NCBI GenBank assembly: GCA_003166475.1
Contig: PMVV01000141.1
Span: 1-33,552 of the forward strand
Length of the DNA stretch: 33,552 nt
Direction of reading: 5' to 3'
DNA from: Bryobacterales bacterium
Lineage (GTDB): Bacteria; Acidobacteriota; Terriglobia; Bryobacterales; Bryobacteraceae
Shown here: positions 4,629 through 28,524 of the stretch, in pieces
Numbering within the stretch: position 1 is the stretch's first letter
Layout of the letters: every line of letters starts with the position of its first letter
The notes under the pieces: generated by a model
What the model was told of the DNA's origin: nothing
The model's database searches: none
What the model saw: the letters and a program-made list of their open reading frames with translations, nothing else
Position numbers and translations under genes: made by a program

Positions 4629-4639
4629 TCCTAGCGCAG

Positions 4640-4671
4640 GCAGGCCACGAAAAACGATGGCCTGCCCCACA
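4640..4671. repeat. Palindromic repeat, long-loop type
   Basis: Arms GCAGGCCA (4640-4647) and TGGCCTGC (4658-4665) enclose the 10-base loop CGAAAAACGA and are followed by CCCACA. Related long-loop hairpins occur at 21146-21217 and 27893-27970. It lies between the VPS10 stop codon at 4673 and the VOC gene, so it may shape the 3' end of the VPS10 transcript. Confidence 0.7.
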
Positions 4672-4672
4672 G

Positions 4673-7600
4673 CTAACGGCCCGGTGTCCAAGGCGCGCCG
4701 GCCGTATCCAAGGCCTGTTCGAGCGCCTTCAGGTCCGCCTCCACCAGCGTTCGCAGCTTCTCCCGCTCGGCGGCGAACTCCTGGCTGGCAATCGCAAACG
4801 CTTGCACATCGCTGCCCGGCGGGCGCTGCAGGGAGGCTCCCTCGTCGTTGACGATGGTCTCGACGCGCTCCACGATAGCCACTGGCACATTCTCGTTGCG
4901 CCGCGCCAGGGTCACATCGCCGCGCAGCGCCCGCAGAATCTCGTTGTTCTTTTTCTCCAGCGCGCGCGCCGCGTCCGCCCATTTCCGATCCATCGCCGGG
5001 GTGGCGTCAATGGCTTCCTTGATCTTGCCGATGCGCGTGTTCAACTCGTTGGCGCTAGCGAGCGTGCTCAAAACCGCGCGCTCCAGCCTGGCGACTTTTT
5101 GCTGGAATTCGAACAGCTCTTTGCGCGCGGCTTCCTCGCTGGCCTCGCCTTTCTCGGCCTCCACCGTGAATTCCCGCGCGGAAACCAGCGGCGTCACCAC
5201 GCCATCCACCCTTTTCGAAAGCGACACGCTGTAACGTCCCGGCGCGACCAGCGTGCCCGACGGTTCTTCGTAAAACAGATCGTCGTCCACGTCGGCAGGC
5301 CGCGGTCCAGGCAACTCCGCGGCAGGCTCGCGCAGGTTCCAGCTCACGCGATGGATGCCCTTGGTCACCGGACCGGTCAGCGTGCGCAGCGCACGCCCGG
5401 ACGCATCGGCGATGGTCAACAGCAACGCCGGAGCTTCCTCCTCGCCTTCCGCCCGCAGTTCCGCAGCGCTCGGATAAACGATCGCGGCCTTCTTCTTTTC
5501 CGCTTCCTTTTCGGCGTCGCGCCGCTGCTGCTTCCTGGTCTTGATTTCGTCCTTCAGGTAGTAGGTGAACTGCGCGCCGTATGGCGGGTTGTCCGCCGTG
5601 AAGAAAGACTCGCCCAGGAACGCCTTGCCGCGCAGGCCGAACTGCCGCGTCTCGATGTACAGCAACGCATCCTTGACCGCGAACAGCGCGACATCCTGCG
5701 TCAGCGTTTCCGGCTTCAGATCGCGCAGCGGCGTATAGTCGTCGAGAACGTAAATGCCCCGGCCGAAGGTGCCCACCACCAGGTCGTTCATGCGCTTCTG
5801 GATGGCCAGGTCGCGCACCGCGATGGTGGGCATGCCCCCCTTCAGTTGAGTCCACTTCTTGCCGCCGTCGACCGAGAAGAACAGCCCGAACTCGGTACCC
5901 GCGAACAGCAGCCGCGGATTTACGTGATCCTCCGCGAGCGCCAGCACGGGACCGTTGGCCGGCAAGTCGCTCTGAATCGCGGTCCAGGTGCGCCCGGCGT
6001 CGGTGGTCTTCAGCAGATAGGGCGCGAAGTCGGATGCCTTGTGATGGTCGAACGCGGCGTAGGCCGTGCCCGCCTCGTGCTGCGAAGCCAGGATGCGGCT
6101 CACATAGGTGCCATCGGGCACGCCCGGAAACTTGTCGATCTTGCGCCACTCTGCGCCACCGTTTTCGGTCACCTGAATGAGGCCGTCATCGGTGCCGGCA
6201 TAAATCACCCCTTCCTTTTTCGGCGACTCCGCCAACGCCACGATGTTGTCGTAAAACGAAGTCGAAACGTTCTTCGCCACGGCGTCCGGGTTCCAGACTT
6301 TGCCCATCACCGGCAGCGTGTTGCGGTCGATCTGGCGCGTCAGGTCGCCGCTCACGGCCTTCCACGAATCGCCGCGGTCGTCGCTGCGGAACAGCTTGTT
6401 GGCGGCGAAGTACACGCGCGTGTGCGAGTGCGGGCTGATCGTGAGCGGCGAATCCCAGTTCCAGCGCAGCGGCGGTTCGCCCAAGCCGGGCTGCGGCTGG
6501 ATGCCCACCGATTGCCCTGTGCGCCGGTCGTAGCGCACCAACCCGCCGTACTGCGACTCCGAGTAGATGGTGTCGGGGTCCTGCGGATCGACGCGCGATT
6601 GGAAACCGTCGCCGCCCGCCGTCACGTACCAATCGCCATTGGCGATGCCGTGGACGCTGCGCGTGCGCGCCGGTCCGCCCAGCGAGAAGTTGTCCTGCGT
6701 GCCGCCGTAGACGTGATAGAAGGGCGCGGCGTCGTCCACCGCGATATCGTAGAACTGCGTCACGGGCAGGTTGGCCTTGAAAGCCCACGTGGCGGCGCGA
6801 TCGAAGCTCTCGTACACGCCGCCATCGCAACCCACCAGATAGTGGCTGGTATTGTCGGGATCGATCCAGATTTCGTGATTGTCCACGTGCTTAAACCGCT
6901 CGCCCAGATTGTGCAGCGTCTTGCCGCCATCGTCGGAAACCTGCAGAAACACCCACATCACGTAGATGCGGTCGACATTCTTGGGGTCGGCGACGATGTG
7001 CGCGTAATACTGTCCCTGGTCGTCGTGTTCGCTGCGCCGCTCCCAGGTGGCGCCGAAATCGGTGGAGCGGAAGATGCCGCCCTTCTTGTCGATGGATTCG
7101 ATGCTGGCGTAGATCACATCGGGATTCGCTGGCGACATCGCGAGGCCAATGCGCCCCAGATCTTCGCTGGGCAGGCCGGATTTCACCTTGTTCCAGGTGG
7201 CCCCTGCGTCGGTGGATTTGTAAATGGCGCTCTCCGGACCGCCGTCGATCAGCGTCCACACATGCCGGCGGCGCTGATACGCGGCCGCCAGCAGGACGTC
7301 GGGATTGCGCGGGTCCATCGCCACGTCGGTCACGCCGGTGTTCTCGCTAATCGTCAGCACGGCTTTCCAGGTCTTGCCGCCATCGGTGGTCTTATACAAT
7401 CCGCGGTCGCCGCCCGGCCCCCACAATGGCCCTTGCGCGGCGACGTAGACAGTGTTGGAATCCCGTGGATCGATGGCGATGCGCGCGATGTGCTCGGACT
7501 TCTTCAGGCCCATGTTCTTCCACGATTTGCCGCCGTCGTCGGACCGGTACACGCCATCGCCATAGGACACGCTGCGCTGGCTGTTGTTCTCGCCCGTGCC

Positions 7601-7933
7601 GACCCACACCACGTTGGGATTCCTAGCGTCTACGACCACCGTGCCGATGGAGTAGGAGCCTTCGCCATCGAACACCGGCGTGAATGAGGTGCCGGCGTTG
7701 ACCGTCTTCCACACGCCGCCGGATGCCGACCCGACGTAGTAGGTGCTTTTGTCTTTGGGGTGGACGGCGAACGATCCCACGCGGCCGGAAGTCACGGCAG
7801 GACCGATTGACCGGAGCTTCAGTCCGGCGAAGGCGTCCGCCGGCGTGGAGCCGGAAGGCTTGTCAGCCTCCTGCGCCGACAGCGGCGGGAGCGCGATCAG
7901 AAGACAGGCGAAAAGGGCGGAGCGTAATGGCAT
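4673..7933 (-). CDS. Secreted VPS10/sortilin-like BNR-repeat propeller protein
   Basis: A 1086-residue exported protein. Residues 1-20 (MPLRSALFACLLIALPPLSA) are a signal peptide. About nine Asp-box/BNR repeats follow, e.g. YRSDDGGKSWKN, YKTTDGGKTWKA, FRSTDFGATWER, FRSDDRGDSWKA and LKTTDAGRTWTA, ending near RGIYVLDDYTPLRDL. They form one or two beta-propellers like the VPS10 or WD40/YVTN-glycosyl-hydrolase class. The C-terminal third has a charged helix (EKEAEKKKAA), a beta domain with IHRVSWNLREP, and a helical tail. Often annotated as glycosyl hydrolase, but I see no catalytic motif that proves it; binding or peptide processing are alternatives. Start 7933 is chosen from the signal peptide and a TATACT box nine bases upstream; a start at 8050 would read through the repeat region. 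Confidence 0.88.
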   Translation of the reverse strand: MPLRSALFACLLIALPPLSAQEADKPSGSTPADAFAGLKLRSIGPAVTSGRVGSFAVHPKDKSTYYVGSASGGVWKTVNAGTSFTPVFDGEGSYSIGTVVVDARNPNVVWVGTGENNSQRSVSYGDGVYRSDDGGKSWKNMGLKKSEHIARIAIDPRDSNTVYVAAQGPLWGPGGDRGLYKTTDGGKTWKAVLTISENTGVTDVAMDPRNPDVLLAAAYQRRRHVWTLIDGGPESAIYKSTDAGATWNKVKSGLPSEDLGRIGLAMSPANPDVIYASIESIDKKGGIFRSTDFGATWERRSEHDDQGQYYAHIVADPKNVDRIYVMWVFLQVSDDGGKTLHNLGERFKHVDNHEIWIDPDNTSHYLVGCDGGVYESFDRAATWAFKANLPVTQFYDIAVDDAAPFYHVYGGTQDNFSLGGPARTRSVHGIANGDWYVTAGGDGFQSRVDPQDPDTIYSESQYGGLVRYDRRTGQSVGIQPQPGLGEPPLRWNWDSPLTISPHSHTRVYFAANKLFRSDDRGDSWKAVSGDLTRQIDRNTLPVMGKVWNPDAVAKNVSTSFYDNIVALAESPKKEGVIYAGTDDGLIQVTENGGAEWRKIDKFPGVPDGTYVSRILASQHEAGTAYAAFDHHKASDFAPYLLKTTDAGRTWTAIQSDLPANGPVLALAEDHVNPRLLFAGTEFGLFFSVDGGKKWTQLKGGMPTIAVRDLAIQKRMNDLVVGTFGRGIYVLDDYTPLRDLKPETLTQDVALFAVKDALLYIETRQFGLRGKAFLGESFFTADNPPYGAQFTYYLKDEIKTRKQQRRDAEKEAEKKKAAIVYPSAAELRAEGEEEAPALLLTIADASGRALRTLTGPVTKGIHRVSWNLREPAAELPGPRPADVDDDLFYEEPSGTLVAPGRYSVSLSKRVDGVVTPLVSAREFTVEAEKGEASEEAARKELFEFQQKVARLERAVLSTLASANELNTRIGKIKEAIDATPAMDRKWADAARALEKKNNEILRALRGDVTLARRNENVPVAIVERVETIVNDEGASLQRPPGSDVQAFAIASQEFAAEREKLRTLVEADLKALEQALDTAGAPWTPGR

Positions 7934-7942
7934 CACGCGAGC

Positions 7943-7948
7943 AGTATA
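7943..7948 (-). promoter_or_regulatory. -10 box TATACT
   Basis: Minus-strand TATACT ends nine bases before the ATG at 7933. No SD sequence is visible, so the mRNA would have almost no leader. Confidence 0.45.
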
Positions 7949-7981
7949 ACAAGTCGCTGTAGGGCACACACAACCAAGAGA

Positions 7982-8022
7982 GGCGGCCTGAGAGGCCGCC
8001 GCAGGCCGAGGGCCTGCCCCAC
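7982..8022. repeat. Double-hairpin repeat with GCCCCAC tail
   Basis: Hairpin 1 is GGCGGCCT, loop GAG, AGGCCGCC (7982-8000). Hairpin 2 follows with no gap: GCAGGCC, loop GAG, GGCCTGC (8001-8017), then CCCAC. The architecture matches 10641 and 12181, but the second stem has a paired change (GCC/GGC instead of GCT/AGC). The stop codon of the next minus-strand gene lies in its right edge. Confidence 0.85.
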
Positions 8023-8603
8023 TAGGGATTGGGCGGCTGTGGTTCGTCACTGAAATGCTCCACCTTCTTGCCGTACTCCGACCGGTAGAAGATGTCGCGC
8101 TCGCCGGTCTCGGGATTCACCCAGCCTACCTGGAACTTGGGGGCCAGATGGTCTTTTGAATGGTCCGGCTTGGATTCTTCCGGGCGTTTCTGGCGGGCGG
8201 CCTTGATGCGCTCCAACTCCTTGTAGGCCTTGAAGTAGGCACGTTCCAAGCGGCCCTGGATCTGGGTCAGACGGTCGAAGACAGGGACGCGTCCTTCGGG
8301 GGGCAGGCCCGCGGCGAAGCAGTCGGCTTCCAGGACTTCCACGCGTACCAGCTTCCACTGGGCGATGGCAGCCTGGTCAACGAGGTATTGCTCGGCCTGG
8401 TCTTGGGGCTGGTAGAGGTTTTGGAGGCCGTCGTGGATGTGGTCGAAGTCCTCCTGACGTTCGCCGGGCAGGATGATTTTGCTGGCGCGCAGGCCGTGGC
8501 GCAGCGAATTCATGGAGGCGGTGGCCTTCCCCTGAGGAGTCTTAGGACCGGTTGCGTGCCGTGCGTTGCGGCGATTTGCCGCGATTTGTCTCTTTGTTGC
8601 CAT
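8022..8603 (-). CDS. Short hypothetical protein of an acidobacterial multicopy family
   Basis: A 193-residue soluble protein without signal peptide. It begins MATKRQIAANRRNARHATG with PKTPQGKATAS, then MNSLRHGLRAS. This lysine/arginine/asparagine-rich start is one I recall in many acidobacterial hypotheticals that occur in several copies per genome. The rest is helical (ILPGERQEDFDHIHDGL; WKLVRVEVLEADCF) and ends in a polar tail. Start 8603 is supported by an AGAGGT SD seven bases upstream; the ATG at 8624 lies before it. The TAG stop is provided by the hairpin repeat at 7982-8022, and another hairpin pair lies 59 bases before the start, so the gene is bracketed by repeats. Function unknown; the basic N-terminus could bind nucleic acid. 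Confidence 0.75.
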   Translation of the reverse strand: MATKRQIAANRRNARHATGPKTPQGKATASMNSLRHGLRASKIILPGERQEDFDHIHDGLQNLYQPQDQAEQYLVDQAAIAQWKLVRVEVLEADCFAAGLPPEGRVPVFDRLTQIQGRLERAYFKAYKELERIKAARQKRPEESKPDHSKDHLAPKFQVGWVNPETGERDIFYRSEYGKKVEHFSDEPQPPNP

Positions 8604-8878: not shown

Positions 8879-9085
8879 TTGGCGCTCTTACTGGTAATTC
8901 GGAAGGGACTTCACGATCTGCGCGGTGGCCACGCTTACGTGGACCACCTGGCCCACAAGGCGCTGGGCAAAATGGGCGGGAAGGCGAGTGCGAAGCGCGG
9001 GCCGGAGTACTTCCGCAAGATTGCCGGGATGCGGAAAACGCGGGCTGGGGCAGACCGCGCCGAACAGGTCAGCCTCAGTGCATGA
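8879..9085 (+). CDS. Possible small basic protein or gene remnant
   Basis: A 68-codon frame from a TTG. Its middle (KALGKMGGKASAKRG with PEYFRKIAGMRKTRAG) resembles short acidobacterial proteins with repeated LGGKA/GGKARA motifs. The N-terminus has no SD and the last residues look unlike the family, so the gene may have lost its 5' end and have a changed 3' end. It overlaps the 3' end of the PIN gene on the other strand by 11 bases. Treat as tentative. Confidence 0.3.
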   Translation: MALLLVIRKGLHDLRGGHAYVDHLAHKALGKMGGKASAKRGPEYFRKIAGMRKTRAGADRAEQVSLSA

Positions 9086-9614
9086 TAATAAGCTCTGAGA
9101 GTGATGGAACGTGCTTTGAGATCAACCGCGGCAGTGTCCATCCGATATCCCTTGCCTGCTCTATAAGAATGCCGATAAAGGCATCTGGGTCAAGATGATA
9201 CTGGTGCCTCATGAAGTCGTCTGCCGTTAAACACTCCAAGCCGTAAGGGACCAAGGCTTCCTTCGGAAAATGTTTCGTGTTGTCGCTCACGATTGAATGA
9301 GCACCGCATTTGACGGCGGTCGCCAGCACATGCCTGTCCTTTGGTTCGTTAGTCATCGCGGAAATCAAGCTCTCGTATCCAGCGACGATGGCGTCTGGGA
9401 AGGCGCTCTCCATCTTTCCGATTCTCCGCTCAACCTGCTCATGCGAATAACCAAACTTGTTTTGCAGTGTCCTGCGAAGCTCTTGCAGGATGCTGGCAGA
9501 CCATTTGGGTGTGTAGAAGGCAGGCTCCTCCGCCAATCGGAGGAGCGTATCCACAATAGGCATCGGGGCCAGGACGCAAGCATCCAGGACCGCTATGTAA
9601 CGGCTAATCCTCAT
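9075..9614 (-). CDS. PIN-domain toxin (PIN_3 type RNase)
   Basis: A 179-residue PIN-domain protein, expected to be a Mg-dependent RNase toxin. Acidic residues occur at the expected places: Asp in AVLDACVLAP near the start, Glu in LQELRRTL, Asp in NEPKDRHVLATA and Asp in SDNTKHFP. Start 9614 (MRISRYIAVLDAC) fits the family. It overlaps the upstream antitoxin gene by 11 bp, so the two are translationally coupled. The upstream gene encodes an excisionase-like HTH protein, the usual partner for this PIN subtype. Reading frame and all four acidic positions look intact, so this is one of the few complete TA modules in the window. Confidence 0.88.
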   Translation of the reverse strand: MRISRYIAVLDACVLAPMPIVDTLLRLAEEPAFYTPKWSASILQELRRTLQNKFGYSHEQVERRIGKMESAFPDAIVAGYESLISAMTNEPKDRHVLATAVKCGAHSIVSDNTKHFPKEALVPYGLECLTADDFMRHQYHLDPDAFIGILIEQARDIGWTLPRLISKHVPSLSELIIMH

Positions 9615-10098
9615 CGGCGGCCATGGCCGTCCGGTCGTAGATCCCGTCACTGGCTTCCGCTTGCGCCAGTTCGCGAATGGCCTTGTGACGCTGCTCGTCC
9701 CTTCTGGCTCTGTATTGGAATAGGTCTTGTGCGTACATGCGGCGATGCGTTCCTACCATGTGGTATGGAATCTCTCCTTTTTCTAACAGATTGACCAAAA
9801 ACTGCCGCGATACGCCGAGGATGGATGCGGCCTCCATCGTCGTCAGCTTGGCCTGATTCTGGACGATCATGACGGACTTCCCTTCATTCAGAAGGCCGAT
9901 CAGTTCAACCAGAAACGAATAGAGCGATTCCGGTAGCAGGCGGGCTTCTCCATTAGGGGCTACAAGCTTCGCCTTGCCACGTCTAAACGCGAGATATAGC
10001 TCTTCAATTTCTCTGCGATCCGTATCCGAGACTGGAACCCGCCGATCCATGTCTGCAGGCTGCAACGGGCTGTCATGTTGTGCCGTTGCTCTAGGCAT
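9604..10098 (-). CDS. Excisionase-type HTH antitoxin of PIN module
   Basis: A 164-residue protein. The winged-helix/excisionase HTH lies at about residues 85-130: LTTMEAASILGVSRQFLVNL followed by LEKGEIPYHMVGTHRR, with the RRMYAQDLFQY end typical of HTH_17. The N-terminal part is a polar domain of unknown role. It should bind operator DNA, repress its own operon and neutralise the PIN toxin encoded next. Start 10098 has GGAGG ten bases upstream. Directly before this lies a run of five 9-bp units (10116-10160), the likely operator. Assignment rests on the HTH motif and on the gene pair. Confidence 0.82.
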   Translation of the reverse strand: MPRATAQHDSPLQPADMDRRVPVSDTDRREIEELYLAFRRGKAKLVAPNGEARLLPESLYSFLVELIGLLNEGKSVMIVQNQAKLTTMEAASILGVSRQFLVNLLEKGEIPYHMVGTHRRMYAQDLFQYRARRDEQRHKAIRELAQAEASDGIYDRTAMAADED

Positions 10099-20051: not shown

Positions 20052-21011
20052 ATGCAAACCAAGCAATTAGGCAACAGCGACATGCACCTCACGCCCATCG
20101 GCATCGGCGCTTGGGCCATGGGCGGCGGCGGTTGGGCGTTCGCCTGGGGACCGCAGGACGACGACGAATCCGTGGCGGCCATCCACGCCGCGCTGGACGC
20201 GGGGCTGAACTGGATCGACACGGCCGCGGTCTACGGCCTGGGCCATTCCGAAGAAGTCGTGGCCCGCGCGCTCAAAGGCCGATCTCGCAAACCGTTCGTC
20301 TTCACCAAGTGCGAACGCGTGTGGAACGACCGCCGCGAAATTGGCAAGAGCCTGAAGGCGGACTCCATCCGCCGCGAAGTCGAGGCCAGCCTGCGCCGTC
20401 TTCAGTTGGACACCATCGACCTGTACCAGATTCACTGGCCCGAACCGGATGAGGATATCGAGGAAGGCTGGACGGCGATGGCGCAGCTTCAGCGCGAGGG
20501 CAAAGTGCGCTGGATCGGAGTATCCAATTTCAATGTGGACCAACTGCGCCGAGCGCGGGCCATCGCGCCCATCACCTCGCTGCAGCCGCCCTATTCGATC
20601 GTTTCGCCTGAAATCGAGGAGGCCCTGCTGCCGTATACCCAGCAGCATGGCATCGGCGTGATCGTGTATTCGCCCATGAAATCGGGACTGCTGTCGGGCG
20701 CCATGACGCGCGAGCGCGTCGCCGCCATGCCGTCGGACGACCACCGCCGGCGCATGCCTCATTTCCAGGAGCCGCGGCTTACCCGCAATCTGGAGTTGGC
20801 CGAATTGCTGCGCGCGATCGGGCGGCGCCACGGCCGCACTCCTGGCGAAGTGGCCATTTCATGGACGCTGCGCAATCCGGCGGTGACCGCGGCGATTGTC
20901 GGCATGCGCTCGGCCAAGCAGGTGGAGGGTGTCATCGGCGCCGCGGAGTTTCGGCTCAGTCCGGAAGAGGTGGGGGAGATCGAAGGCTTTGTGCAGGCAG
21001 GCGCGGCTTAG
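20052..21011 (+). CDS. Aldo/keto reductase
   Basis: A 319-residue NADPH-dependent TIM-barrel oxidoreductase, cytoplasmic. The catalytic tetrad is visible: Asp56 and Tyr61 in WIDTAAVYGLGHSEE, Lys86 in VFTKCERVW and His128 in LYQIHWPEPDED. Cofactor-binding segments include GVSNFNVDQL and VGMRSAKQVEGVIGA. Length and order of motifs are normal for the AKR11/12-like group. Substrate unknown. Part of this gene (20523-20587) and its last bases (20995-21010) recur in diverged form at 21678-21758, which suggests a former second copy. Only a short hairpin-rich spacer precedes it; it looks monocistronic. Confidence 0.92.
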   Translation: MQTKQLGNSDMHLTPIGIGAWAMGGGGWAFAWGPQDDDESVAAIHAALDAGLNWIDTAAVYGLGHSEEVVARALKGRSRKPFVFTKCERVWNDRREIGKSLKADSIRREVEASLRRLQLDTIDLYQIHWPEPDEDIEEGWTAMAQLQREGKVRWIGVSNFNVDQLRRARAIAPITSLQPPYSIVSPEIEEALLPYTQQHGIGVIVYSPMKSGLLSGAMTRERVAAMPSDDHRRRMPHFQEPRLTRNLELAELLRAIGRRHGRTPGEVAISWTLRNPAVTAAIVGMRSAKQVEGVIGAAEFRLSPEEVGEIEGFVQAGAA

Positions 21012-21141
21012 GGGGCTTAACAGCAGTGGGGCAGCCGCCGGCAGGGTCCGCGGAGGTGCTTAGCCGGTCTGGGGAAACCGCTCCGTCGACGGCGACGGGG
21101 AAGCGCCCTAGGCGCAATGCTGTTCACTTAATGATGCTTCG

Positions 21142-21222
21142 GTGGGGCAGGCGATCGTTTTATGTCGCCTGCCAACGCTCCCCGCAGGCGGCAGACCACA
21201 AAGTGCGATGGTCTGCCCCACC
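21142..21222. repeat. Two long-loop palindromic repeats
   Basis: GTGGGGCA leads into stem GGCAGGCGA (21146-21154) and TCGCCTGCC (21165-21173), loop TCGTTTTATG. A second stem follows: GGCAGACCA (21190-21198) and TGGTCTGCC (21209-21217), then CCACC. Both loops are ten bases, as at 4640. The coding sequence of a DUF4160 gene begins abruptly at its right edge. The 21012-21140 stretch before it holds nothing recognisable. Confidence 0.8.
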
Positions 21223-21224
21223 AA

Positions 21225-21311
21225 GGGGTGGAAATCGGACGAATCGAAAGGCTGGTCGCGGAAAACGCGGACCTGTTGTTGAGGGCATGGCATGAGTGCT
21301 TCGGGGACTGA
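21225..21311 (+). pseudogene. DUF4160 gene, only the C-terminal end left
   Basis: The frame reads GVEIGRIERLVAENADLLLR then AWHECFGD and stops at 21311. This is the usual C-terminus of DUF4160 proteins (EI.RI..LV.EN...LL.AWHE.FGD), which are about 80-90 residues long. The first 50-60 residues are absent and the sequence before is the palindromic repeat ending at 21222. The end overlaps the DUF2442 start by 20 bp, the normal arrangement of this TA-like pair. So the presumed toxin partner is dead. Confidence 0.75.
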
Positions 21312-21600
21312 ACTCAGGGAAGCATTCGCACAGAGTGTAAGTGTAAGCAATGATGCGCTGGTTGTGGACTTGGCGGACGGCAGGACAATCACGGCGCCAC
21401 TCGCATGGTTCCCGCGCCTGGCGCACGGGACCGCAACCGAGCGCACCAACTGGCGTCTCATTGCGGGCGGCGAGGGGATCCACTGGCCGGAACTCGATGA
21501 AGATATCAGTGTGGAGAGTCTCCTTGCGGGCCGCGGATCTGGTGAAACGCAGGAGTCTCTTCGCCGGTGGCTCGAGCGGCGGGAAACGGCCGCACGATAA
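21292..21600 (+). CDS. DUF2442 protein, orphan partner of DUF4160
   Basis: A 102-residue protein. The DUF2442 signature is clear: LVVDLADGRTITAPLAWFPRL, ATERTNWRLIAGGEGIHWP and ELDEDISVESLLAGR. DUF2442 genes usually lie next to DUF4160 genes, in a pair regarded as TA-like. Here the DUF4160 gene keeps only its last 28 codons, and the two overlap by 20 bp. The DUF2442 frame itself is intact. It may persist as a solitary regulator or immunity gene. Confidence 0.85.
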   Translation: MSASGTELREAFAQSVSVSNDALVVDLADGRTITAPLAWFPRLAHGTATERTNWRLIAGGEGIHWPELDEDISVESLLAGRGSGETQESLRRWLERRETAAR

Positions 21601-21604
21601 CGCC

Positions 21605-21676
21605 GCCCCGCGTCGCTGTATAAGGCGGCCCGCTGCGCTCCCTGCCATAGCGGCGCAAAGCCCGCCGCGGGACTGT
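21605..21676 (+). pseudogene. Relic of DUF1549 cytochrome gene, promoter plus heme motif
   Basis: Bases 21605-21623 repeat the promoter region of the downstream DUF1549 gene (23397-23416, including CGCGTCGCTGTATAA). Bases 21627-21676 then repeat its heme region (23535-23584), with two mismatches, and still encode RCAPCHSGAKPAAGLS. About 115 bp between these parts is missing. It is a deletion-shrunken copy of the gene at 23438. Confidence 0.75.
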
Positions 21677-21762
21677 CGAGTCTCCGATTTCAACGTGGAC
21701 CAACTGCGCCGCGCGCGAGCCATCGCGCCCATCACCTCGCTTGCAGGCAGGCGCGGTGTAGT
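21677..21762 (+). pseudogene. Relic of aldo/keto reductase gene
   Basis: Bases 21677-21743 repeat 20522-20587 of the aldo/keto reductase gene with about five mismatches and encode VSDFNVDQLRRARAI then APITSL. Bases 21741-21759 then match the last bases of the same gene (20994-21011), GCAGGCAGGCGCGG and the TAG. About 410 bp in between is lost. The two relics join directly at 21676/21677. Confidence 0.75.
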
Positions 21763-23343: not shown

Positions 23344-23404
23344 CCGGCCTACGGCCGGTGGACCGGCGAGGGCGCCGGTCCGCGGGCGAGGGCGCCCGCC
23401 CCGC
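23344..23404. repeat. Triple-hairpin GC repeat
   Basis: Stems CCGGCC/GGCCGG (23344-23358), GACCGGC/GCCGGTC (23361-23380) and GCGGGCG/CGCCCGC (23382-23399) stand in tandem and end in CCCGC. AGGG motifs occupy the loops of the second and third. Layout agrees with the other repeats, sequence differs. It directly precedes the promoter at 23412. Confidence 0.7.
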
Positions 23405-23411
23405 GTCGCTG

Positions 23412-23417
23412 TATAAT
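23412..23417 (+). promoter_or_regulatory. -10 box TATAAT
   Basis: Consensus TATAAT, 20 bases before the ATG at 23438. A short leader of about 14 bases would result. The same CGTCGCTGTATAA string recurs in the relic at 21610-21623. Confidence 0.5.
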
Positions 23418-23437: not shown

Positions 23438-25756
23438 ATGCATCTTTCCCGCACCATCTGCGCGGCAGCTTTGCTCGCATTGCCGTGTCTGGCTCAAGCG
23501 GTGGACTTCGCCGCCGAAGTGCATCCCATTCTGGCGGCGCGCTGCGCCCCCTGCCATAGCGGCGCAAAGCCCGCCGCGGGACTGTCGCTCATCAGCCGCG
23601 CGTTGATGCTCGCCGGCGGCGCAAGCGGCCCGGCGATTGTGCCTGGCGCGAGCGGCGCCAGCCTGCTGATCGAGAAGATCTCCGGACAGCGCGGCGCCAT
23701 CATGCCGGCTTCCGGCGAGCCGCTGGCGGCGGCCCAGATCGCCACTCTACGCGCCTGGATCGACGCGGGCGCGGCTTGGCCGGAGACTGCACCGATTCCT
23801 TCGGGCTGGGTCGCCCCCATTGCACCCAGCCAACCCAATTTGCCCGCAGGCGGCGAACCGCATCCCGTCGATCGTTTCATCGCGGCTTACTTCGCGAAAT
23901 ATGCGCTGGCCTTCCCCGCCGTAGCCCCCGATGCGCGATTTGTCCGGCGCGTCTATTTCGATTTGTGGGGATTGCCGCCCACGCCGGCGCAACTGGAAGC
24001 CTTCCTCAACGACCGCGACCCCGCCAAGCGGGCGCGCCTGATCGATGCGCTGCTCGGCGATTCCGAGCCCTACGCGGAACATTGGATCAGTTGGTGGAAC
24101 GACCTGCTGCGCAACGACCAGGGCGGCGAGTACGCGGGCGAGCGCAAGTCCATTACCGATTGGCTGCTCGGCGCGCTCCAACACAACCTGCCTTACGACA
24201 AGATGGTCGCCGCGCTGGTGAACCCGGTGGAGTCGAGCGACCCGAACGGCTTCCTGATCGGCGTCAACTGGCGCGGCGATATCAACGCCAGCCAGACCCC
24301 CTACATGCAAGCGGCCCAGAACACCGCGCAGATTTTCCTGGGGATCAATCTGAAGTGCGCCTCCTGTCACGACAGTTTCATCAACCGCTACAAGCTGCGC
24401 GAGTCGTATGGCATGGCGGCGCTGTTTGCGCCCCAGAGCCGGCTGGAGTTGGTGCGTTGCGACGTCAAGACGGGCGCCTACACGGGCCCGCAACTGCTCT
24501 ATCCCGAGTTAGGCATGGTGCCCGAGGATGCCCCGCTCGCCGATCGACACGCCGCCGCCGCGCGATTCTTCACCGATCCGCGCAACGGCCGCGTGGCGCG
24601 CACCATCGTCAATCGCTACTGGCAGAAACTGTTCGGGCGCGGGTTGGTGGAACCCGTCGACGAAATGGATGGCGAGCCCTGGAACGCGGACCTGCTCGAC
24701 TGGCTGGCGTCCGACTTCACGGCGCACGGCAGCGATCTGAAATACCTGCTGCGGCTGCTGATGAATTCGAAAGCGTATCAACTGCAGGCTGCCGTCAGCC
24801 CCGAGCAGCCCGAGAAGCCGTACGTGTTTCGCGGACCTCAGGTGCGGCGGCTCTCCGCCGAGGAGTTCGCCGATACCGTGTCGGCCATCACCGGCGAATG
24901 GCGTTTGGTCGAAAGAGACAAGGCGGCCATGCCGGCACGCGACTGGCAGTTCAAGGCGTCGCCACTCGCCCTGGCGTTGGGCCGGCCCATTCGCGACCAG
25001 GTCTTCACTACGCGCGATAATCGCCCGACCACGTTCCAGGCGCTGGAACTGGCCAACGGCGCGAGCCTGGAGAACATGCTACGGCGGGGCGCGCTGCGAT
25101 TGCTGGGTCAACTGCCGGCCGCATCGGAAAACCTGTTCGATAGCGGCAGGCTGCGCAAAGGCGCGGCCGATTTCGATATCGACATCTCCGGCCTGAAGCG
25201 GTTGTGGCTGCTGGAGCAGGATGCCGGCTCCTACGATCCCACGCGCACCGTGGCGGGCTGGATCCACGTGGAGTTTTTCGGTCCGCAAGGCGTGAAGGAT
25301 CTCGCCGATCTGGCGCCGGCCACCTTCGCGCGGCAGCGGGTGACCTCCAACAAGGAACCCGCCGGGGAGGCCGTTACCATGCCGCCGGGCACGCGCCTGG
25401 TGCTTCCGATTGACGGCCTCGGGTACGTACGGATGCGTGGCCGCGTGGCTCTCGACGACCGCTCCCTGCCCGACGATATCGAGGGCGCCGTGCGCTTCTT
25501 CATTTTCGGCGCGGAGCCCGATCCCGAGCGGCTGGTGCGCGTCTCGGGATCGCGGCCAGTGCCCGCGCCGCCGCCTTTGGCTAGCGTCGATGAGGCGGGA
25601 CGGCGGCTATATTTGCAACTTTTCGCGCGCGAGCCGAACTCCGAGGAGGCGCGCATCGTAAGGAACTATTTTGCGGGCGGTAAACTTGCGCCGGCGGCTT
25701 TGGAGGATCTTCTGTGGAGTTTATTGCTGCACCCCGAGTGTCAATACTTGTATTAG
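23438..25756 (+). CDS. Secreted planctomycete-type cytochrome c DUF1549/DUF1553 protein
   Basis: A 772-residue exported protein. Signal peptide about 1-21 (MHLSRTICAAALLALPCLAQ). A PSCyt1-type heme domain follows, with CAPCH at residues 36-40 and a distal MPASGEPL. Then DUF1549 (HPVDRFIAAYF, RRVYFDLWGLPPTPAQLEAF, NDLLRNDQGGEYAG, and a second CASCHDSF) and DUF1553 (FFTDPRNGRVARTIVNRYWQ, LFGRGLVEPVDEM, LLRLLMNSKAYQ, RRLSAEEFADTVSAITG), ending at LLHPECQYLY. The family is common in Planctomycetes and Acidobacteria. Members usually pair with a DUF1501 gene; here that gene is 2.8 kb downstream. The next gene overlaps by 43 bp. Role in periplasmic polysaccharide oxidation or degradation is suspected, not proven. 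Confidence 0.9.
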   Translation: MHLSRTICAAALLALPCLAQAVDFAAEVHPILAARCAPCHSGAKPAAGLSLISRALMLAGGASGPAIVPGASGASLLIEKISGQRGAIMPASGEPLAAAQIATLRAWIDAGAAWPETAPIPSGWVAPIAPSQPNLPAGGEPHPVDRFIAAYFAKYALAFPAVAPDARFVRRVYFDLWGLPPTPAQLEAFLNDRDPAKRARLIDALLGDSEPYAEHWISWWNDLLRNDQGGEYAGERKSITDWLLGALQHNLPYDKMVAALVNPVESSDPNGFLIGVNWRGDINASQTPYMQAAQNTAQIFLGINLKCASCHDSFINRYKLRESYGMAALFAPQSRLELVRCDVKTGAYTGPQLLYPELGMVPEDAPLADRHAAAARFFTDPRNGRVARTIVNRYWQKLFGRGLVEPVDEMDGEPWNADLLDWLASDFTAHGSDLKYLLRLLMNSKAYQLQAAVSPEQPEKPYVFRGPQVRRLSAEEFADTVSAITGEWRLVERDKAAMPARDWQFKASPLALALGRPIRDQVFTTRDNRPTTFQALELANGASLENMLRRGALRLLGQLPAASENLFDSGRLRKGAADFDIDISGLKRLWLLEQDAGSYDPTRTVAGWIHVEFFGPQGVKDLADLAPATFARQRVTSNKEPAGEAVTMPPGTRLVLPIDGLGYVRMRGRVALDDRSLPDDIEGAVRFFIFGAEPDPERLVRVSGSRPVPAPPPLASVDEAGRRLYLQLFAREPNSEEARIVRNYFAGGKLAPAALEDLLWSLLLHPECQYLY

Positions 25757-27576: not shown

Positions 27577-27843
27577 ATGAACGTCTCGCTTACCCCAGAA
27601 CTCGAACAGTTCGTCAGCGCCAAAGTTGAATCGGGCCGCTACAACTCTGCGAGCGAAGTCGTCCGCGAGGCCCTTCGCCTTCTGGAAGAAAACGACTCCG
27701 CCCGGGCCGAGCAACTGGCGCAATTCAACGGCGAACTCGGCCGCCGCCTAGCAGCCCTCGATCGGGGCGAAACTGTCGACCCGGCCGCGGCGCGCGCCAG
27801 GTTGCGGCGCAAGTCCGAGCAGCGCCGGAAGCCGCGCCCGTGA
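27577..27843 (+). CDS. parD: ParD-like RHH antitoxin, now without its toxin
   Basis: An 88-residue antitoxin of the ParD (CopG/Arc/MetJ) type. MNVSLTPELEQFVSAKVESG then RYNSASEVVREALRLLEEND is the classic RHH N-terminus, and the charged C-terminus (PAAARARLRRKSE) would wrap the toxin. It binds its own promoter and inhibits ParE. A weak AGGAG lies about 12 bases upstream. Its stop overlaps a GTG that begins ParE, but the toxin gene breaks off after about 17 codons. The antitoxin itself looks intact. Confidence 0.9.
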   Translation: MNVSLTPELEQFVSAKVESGRYNSASEVVREALRLLEENDSARAEQLAQFNGELGRRLAALDRGETVDPAAARARLRRKSEQRRKPRP

Positions 27844-27893
27844 GCGATTGCATTCTCGGTCCCGGTGCGGATCTCGACCTCAGCAGATTCGCT
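27840..27893 (+). pseudogene. ParE toxin stub, cut by palindromic repeat
   Basis: From a GTG overlapping the parD stop the frame reads VSDCILGPGADLDLSRF, matching the N-terminal strand and first helix of ParE/RelE toxins (xxLxPxADxDLxEI). At about 27893 it runs straight into GTGGGGCA, the start of the palindromic repeat. The remaining 75-80 residues of a normal ParE are absent. The open frame continues to 28040 only through repeat sequence. Confidence 0.75.
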
Positions 27894-27974
27894 GTGGGGC
27901 AACCCATCGTTTTTCGTGGCCTGCCGAGTTCGAGCACGGTGCGCAGACGACAAACAACGATCGTCTGCGCCACG
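27893..27974. repeat. Long-loop palindromic repeat
   Basis: A degenerate first unit (GTGGGGCA, then ATCGTTTTTCGTGGCCTGCC) is related to 4640 and 21146. A perfect second stem follows: GCGCAGACGA (27941-27950), loop CAAACAACGA, TCGTCTGCGC (27961-27970), then CAC. It replaces the body of the parE gene. Confidence 0.78.
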
Positions 27975-27999
27975 CCGGGCACCGGAACTGTACAGTTAA

Positions 28000-28036
28000 T
28001 TTGCGGACACTACACTAGTATCCGCAAACAGCGGAT
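28000..28036. repeat. Nested inverted repeats before hicB
   Basis: TTTGCGGA (28000-28007) pairs with TCCGCAAA (28021-28028) over a 13-base spacer. The second arm can also pair with the following sequence: ATCCGC (28020-28025), AAACA, GCGGAT (28031-28036). The two hairpins exclude each other. It lies 66 bases before the hicB start. Role unknown; operator, terminator or attenuator are possible. Confidence 0.55.
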
Positions 28037-28101: not shown

Positions 28102-28377
28102 ATGAAGATCTACAACTTCAAGGTGATCCTGGAACCCGACGAGGATTTCGACGGAAATCCGTCGGGCTGGCATGTCTACTGTCCTGCACTCAAAAAGCTG
28201 GGCGGCTCGACGTGGGGCGAGACTTGCGAGGAAGCACTCAAGAACATCAGCGAGGTCGTTCACATGATCGTGCAGGAATTCAAGGAGGAAGGGAAGCCAT
28301 TGCCCGAAGGCCCGGGCGACTGGGTGGAGGTTGAGGAGATTTCCCGGGAGCGACCCCATATCGCGGTCACGGTTTAG
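28102..28377 (+). CDS. hicB: HicB-like antitoxin, now without its toxin
   Basis: A 91-residue protein of the HicB N-terminal type. MKIYNFKVILEPDEDFDGNP then GWHVYCPALKKLGGSTWGET and EEALKNISEVVHMIVQEF form the partial RNase-H-like fold of HicB. It has no C-terminal DNA-binding domain, as in the short HicB class. It would neutralise HicA, the dsRBD-like mRNA interferase encoded next. hicA begins five bases after the hicB stop but is cut after 27 codons. No SD before the ATG; a TACACT sits at 28060-28065. Confidence 0.87.
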   Translation: MKIYNFKVILEPDEDFDGNPSGWHVYCPALKKLGGSTWGETCEEALKNISEVVHMIVQEFKEEGKPLPEGPGDWVEVEEISRERPHIAVTV

Positions 28378-28382
28378 AGATC

Positions 28383-28463
28383 ATGGCCATCGACTACCGG
28401 GGTCTGCGGTCGCTCAGCGCGCGGGAACTTATCGCAGCCCTCACGCGCGACGGATTCGGTAGT
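28383..28463 (+). pseudogene. HicA toxin stub, cut by double-hairpin repeat
   Basis: The frame reads MAIDYRGLRSLSARELIAAL then TRDGF, the first helix of a HicA toxin (SARELIAAL.RDGF). Normally an FxLxRQRGSH stretch with the catalytic His follows. Instead, from about 28461 the sequence becomes the hairpin repeat. The catalytic His and about 60 residues are missing. The frame stays open to 28532 only through repeat sequence. Confidence 0.78.
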
Positions 28464-28515
28464 GGGGGCTGCAAGCCGCCTGAAAGGCGGCTGCGGGCAA
28501 GATTGCCCGCCCCAC
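28464..28515. repeat. Double-hairpin repeat with GCCCCAC tail
   Basis: AGCCGCCT, GAA, AGGCGGCT (28474-28492), then GCGGGCAA, GA, TTGCCCGC (28493-28510), then CCCAC. It fuses to the truncated hicA at its left and lies 10 bases before the -10 box of the DUF1501 gene at its right. Confidence 0.85.
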
Positions 28516-28524
28516 AGGAAGTAG

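Follow-up and report, generated by a model that had tools for sequence, protein, structure and literature searches.

The window analysed in this study (the whole stretch of 33,552 nt; contig C227 of a 497-contig, 7.56-Mb MAG of a soil bacterium with 5.1% contamination) probably holds three decayed toxin-antitoxin (TA) modules in a multiply deleted region, within which the neighbouring repeats are opportunistic rather than toxin-seeking and the decay of toxins is mostly repeat-free. The genomes used for comparison are relatives above the genus level, with no same-genus genome and no empty or pre-deletion site among them. The gene order PSD1-PQQ-DUF1501 was found in no relative compared, the nearest DNA relative at the parDE site (L144, with a PQQ gene 84% identical) continues into unrelated sequence downstream, and an Rfam search of the whole window returned no match.

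Toxin remnants and their junctions

The features of the three modules and of the repeats beside them are the following:

21115-21224, + strand: family A element, with left terminal repeat CAATGCTGTTCACTT present and the right one missing after CACCAA (terminal-repeat scan)
21225-21311, + strand: DUF4160 remnant of approximately 28 codons from the end of the gene, continuous with element A (PF13711 positions 45-65 of 65, E 0.2, weak; position)
21292-21600, + strand: DUF2442 gene, intact, the partner of DUF4160 (PF10387, E 1.9e-22)
27577-27843, + strand: parD antitoxin gene, intact, 88 aa (PF03693, E 6.5e-11; homologues in the family 66-91% identical)
27840-27881, + strand: parE remnant of 14 codons from the start (MSDCILGPGADLDL), which overlaps the stop codon of parD (compared as DNA and as protein with the parE of relatives)
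27881 to about 28018, + strand: family B element without its left terminal repeat, with two REP-like hairpins and a right terminal repeat ending ...AACTGTACAGTTAATTTGCGGACACT, then CTAG
28102-28377, + strand: hicB antitoxin gene of 91 aa, apparently intact (weak PF15919; the homologous DNA in L016 has an intact hicA)
28383-28457, + strand: hicA remnant of 25 codons from the start, ending at DGF (comparison with HicA of L016)
28462-28518, + strand: REP-like element of family C with two nested hairpins (own-genome matches and fold)

The intact ParD of the original prediction was confirmed by the match to the ParD antitoxin family. Directly 3′ of parD, the place of a full-length ParE is taken by 14 codons without a Pfam match, and the remainder of the gene of approximately 100 codons is gone from the window; the window parDE is a degraded ParDE and not a functional member of that system. 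Alignment with the parE of relatives, which had been proposed as a means of mapping the junction base by base, placed the boundary between parE and element B at 27880/27881. The window ParE resembles its relatives only as far as MSDCILGPGADLDL, after which the relatives read DEIWEYIAADS..., and the bases that follow the junction, CAGCAGATTCGCTGTGGGGCAACC..., are those of a dispersed element of approximately 140 bp. The match to ParE thus stops at the repeat, as had been claimed, although at a point 13 bp upstream of GTGGGGCA (27894), where the break had been put. The intervening CAGCAGATTCGCT (27881-27893) is common to other copies in the genome (CAGCAGATTAGCT), and the residues "SRF" are therefore encoded by the repeat and do not belong to ParE. 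A microhomology-driven deletion from parE into element B was considered and dropped on the strength of the single base shared at the junction.

Similar junctions had also been claimed for hicA and the DUF4160 gene, and both indeed adjoin repeats. The window HicB scores under the Pfam gathering cut-off (PF15919, E 5e-4) and is homologous to the HicA-paired HicB of L016; the window HicA agrees with the intact HicA of the same locus up to MAIDYRGLRSLSARELIAALTRDGF, save one residue, and then diverges, so that in place of a full-length HicA there are 25 codons with the repeat next to them, the remnant stopping 4 bp upstream of the family C repeat at 28462. The DUF4160 stub lies directly 3′ of repeat A and overlaps the start of the DUF2442 gene; its Pfam score is weak, and the assignment leans mainly on position. 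This gene lost its N-terminal part; in parE and hicA it is the C-terminal part that is missing.

Immediately downstream of the DUF2442 gene, positions 21603-21741 form a patchwork in which 21603-21623 equals 23396-23416 (100%), 21624-21678 equals 23533-23587 (96%) and 21678-21741 equals 20518-20581 (92%). Its sources are a nearby PSD1-type gene and an aldo-keto reductase, and no repeat lies there; it looks like the remains of a tandem duplication scarred by deletions. Elsewhere in the window, an apparently intact TA-like pair is present at 9075-10098 (- strand), where a PIN-domain gene is overlapped by an HTH_17 gene.

Three repeat families

The original prediction had assigned the repeats at all three genes to one family. 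They fall instead into three distinct families, A (21115-21224), B (27881-28018) and C (28462-28518), which share a plan of GTGGGG with a hairpin, a spacer, and a hairpin with CCCCAC or similar. The window copy of family A has its best genome match at 97% identity over 21108-21224, that of family B has 43 scored matches in its own genome (fold z -2.9; copy alignment and terminal-repeat scan), and the family C stretch has 45 matches in 0.98 Mb of its own genome (fold z -3.9). The half-site GTGGGGCAGNCNATCG gave 222 matches genome-wide vs. 0 in the reversed control, so the repeats are certainly real. The own-genome sample consisted of 60 stretches (0.98 Mb) selected for holding repeats, and repeat densities from it are therefore inflated. 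Additionally, scaffold NN joins and contig ends recur inside REP-like repeats among the stretches L084-L142, making the MAG assembly fragile at such repeats.

Families A (at DUF4160) and B (at parE) carry terminal inverted repeats (TIRs). Complete B copies read AGTGTCC..GAA.TAACTGTACAG, two hairpins and CTGTACAGTTAATTCGCGGACACT, with CTAG at the ends; complete A copies run from CAATRCTGTTCACTT to AAGTGAACAGYATTG, with apparent target site duplications (TSDs) around YTAR (in the copies L085, L122, L125 and L130). The B copy of the window is without its left TIR, on the side facing parE, and the A copy is without its right TIR, on the side facing DUF4160. One or both ends are missing in 51 of the 59 copies that could be scored (31/33 for B and 20/26 for A), and one-sided truncation is therefore the usual state of these elements, whatever their neighbour.

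The sampled DNA placed 173 of 211 REP-like intervals in intergenic positions, though only approximately 14% of the sequence is noncoding, with a median distance of 10.5 bp to gene 3′ ends (n=200) vs. 102 bp to 5′ ends (n=157). The TAG stop of a large gene at 4673-8050 (- strand) is supplied by a B-family REP core at 4639-4676. Known REP, BIME and REPIN elements, which are associated with RAYT transposases, are palindromes tagged with GTAG or GTGG (PMC3733652, PMC3116915); they are extragenic and close to gene 3′ ends, where they sometimes give the stop codon (PMC3733652). A, B and C resemble them as short, high-copy, extragenic palindromes in inverted pairs near 3′ ends, with GTGG at the beginning of the hairpins. 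They differ from classical REPs in that A and B have extra TIRs and that complete A copies have apparent target duplications; TIR-type repeats, including the TIRtrons of Acidobacteria and others, have been described (PMC3733652). A and B are also like MITEs in being non-coding and approximately 110-140 bp long with TIRs, in the apparent TSD around YTAR of complete A copies and in the CTAG at B ends, and unlike them in that the majority of copies have lost one end or both. The three families are accordingly filed as REP/BIME-like, A and B with MITE features too. The genome has four Y1_Tnp genes, one of which, in L027 (1401-2053), has a GTGGGGCAGGCTCTCAGCC... repeat on either side, the two in inverted orientation and from a sister family that is none of A, B or C. 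A Y1_Tnp gene with repeats on both sides is termed a REPtron (PMC3733652), and this RAYT-like gene with its inverted repeat pair is such an arrangement.

ParE loss and ParD persistence in the family

The survey of the family covered 69 ParD loci (L211-L279; 24 close and 45 more distant), with ParD as the query. ParE was intact at 26 of them, broken or partial at 29 and without a match at 14, some of these last being cut by contig ends. Among the close ParD relatives, 11 of 24 have an intact ParE, and the rest have frameshifts, stops, an internal deletion, truncations or no ParE match. The lesions are diverse and apparently independent across the 69 loci, and no hairpin beyond the level of intact loci was found at ten truncation-type ParE breaks in relatives. 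L211 and L214, from different genera, share a frameshift at nearly the same spot of parE (codons ~65-70, the FWPxGAYL region). On the best reading of these data, toxin loss is common and tolerated in this ParD family; the suggestion that it may even be favoured also fits them.

The strongest alternative goes further and holds that orphan ParD is kept by selection, e.g., for anti-addiction against incoming ParE, with toxin loss favoured and the repeat now marking where the antitoxin transcript ends. Broken ParD is rare (a single in-frame stop in the approximately 150 matches listed), the REPs of the genome typically lie just 3′ of genes, and omega for ParD is as low in the orphan set as in the paired set (0.080 vs. 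0.084), although these values come from subset fits that mix orphan branches inseparably with branches possibly older than the toxin loss. That ParD is intact where ParE is broken is also partly expected, since a toxin left without its antitoxin does harm and the search started from ParD, which biases the set toward intact ParD. Many ParE lesions look young, so that neutral persistence suffices to account for the orphan ParD. Selection for an orphan ParD is thus possible and unproven, and the scenario as a whole is judged unlikely. A more specific version, in which ParE of this ParD lineage has been repeatedly and independently inactivated in the Bryobacteraceae while purifying selection maintains ParD as an anti-addiction antitoxin that stands alone, REP-type elements being one mutational route and then a new 3′ end for the antitoxin, appears distinctly unlikely.

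Orphan antitoxins have been described before, many of them traced to degraded TA pairs, and an anti-addiction role has been proposed (Klebsiella survey, PMC7192599; review, PMC7354431). The window parD resembles them in being an intact antitoxin without a functional toxin; beyond those cases, the ends of the toxins were mapped here to the base at repeats, and counts of the asymmetry were obtained for a single ParDE lineage within one acidobacterial family.

Repeats, toxin genes and the assembly

The coincidence of three toxin remnants with repeats in 7 kb had been read as more than chance, with repeats inserting in toxin genes or mediating their deletion. By our own estimate, the average density predicts approximately 0.15 repeats per dead 300-bp gene; three repeat-bordered dead TA genes within 7 kb exceed this, so that local targeting may have played a part. 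The repeats are real and the cluster is noteworthy as locally unusual, but it was recognised post hoc and is not mirrored genome-wide. Across the neighbourhoods of the other TA loci of the genome (213 kb), REP density was 0.080/kb vs. approximately 0.064/kb implied genome-wide, and 3 half-sites were observed where approximately 6 were expected; no enrichment was found there. A Pfam screen of genes at repeats found mostly domains that are complete as far as the repeat (GHMP, YdjC, DivIC, HTH_37, HepT, NikR, Response_reg), including two HepT toxins complete at 10 and 32 bp from repeats; this screen, a partial census of truncated non-toxin genes, also found a damaged-looking VOC/bleomycin-type gene (L095) and, in L138, a CoxS-like gene from which a segment is missing. 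In contig C339 of the same genome, ParE is truncated with no repeat. In contig C126 (L189, 1381-1708), a C-terminal stub of hicA is followed by a hicB antitoxin cut at an A-family element.

These observations bear on the idea that insertion of the elements, or deletions born from them, are the main cause of inactivation and hit toxins preferentially. Both TIR-bearing copies of the window have lost the TIR on the toxin side and the hicAB module of C126 adds a fourth TA module cut at an element, but the gene cut there is the antitoxin and one-sided truncation is normal for A and B. Approximately half of family ParE is broken by stops, frameshifts and deletions, and the ten truncation breaks and other lesions inspected were repeat-free. 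With REP density not higher near TA loci and intact HepT toxins beside repeats, targeting of toxins by the repeats is not supported, and repeat-driven loss as the main cause is very unlikely. More improbable still is an assembly artefact in which short-read contigs misjoined at repeats would make the truncation of parE, hicA and DUF4160 only apparent: the number of contigs, the contamination and the many breaks at these repeats speak for it, but the window is without any N, three independent misjoins would be needed in 7 kb, each inside a TA gene, and most copies elsewhere also lack a TIR on one side.

The preferred reading is that of decayed modules with opportunistic repeats. Toxin function would first have been lost or become dispensable, and an element may then have inserted into the toxin gene or next to it; a subsequent deletion would have removed the greater part of the toxin along with the toxin-side terminal repeat of the element, whose loss was observed for A and B, and would have left the antitoxins as orphans. 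Deletion is the likely means by which the toxin bodies were lost, because parE and DUF4160 are joined to the inside of elements without a TIR on that side. This much of the original reading is retained; a special link between repeats and toxins is not, given the repeat density, the HepT genes and the hicB of C126. Dead or dying toxin genes would then be neutral DNA that gathers both repeats and deletions, the repeats being occupants and possible deletion endpoints.

This study provides base-level junctions for toxin loss beside REP/MITE-like elements and measures, within one family, how unequally toxin and antitoxin are preserved. It also carries a warning that repeat-bordered truncations in MAGs do not equal repeat-driven inactivation unless a genome-wide control is included. 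Of most interest is this asymmetry itself, with ParE intact at 26 of 69 loci and hardly any broken ParD among the loci that could be detected; it opens to testing the question of whether selection retains orphan antitoxins or whether these simply persist longer than their toxins.
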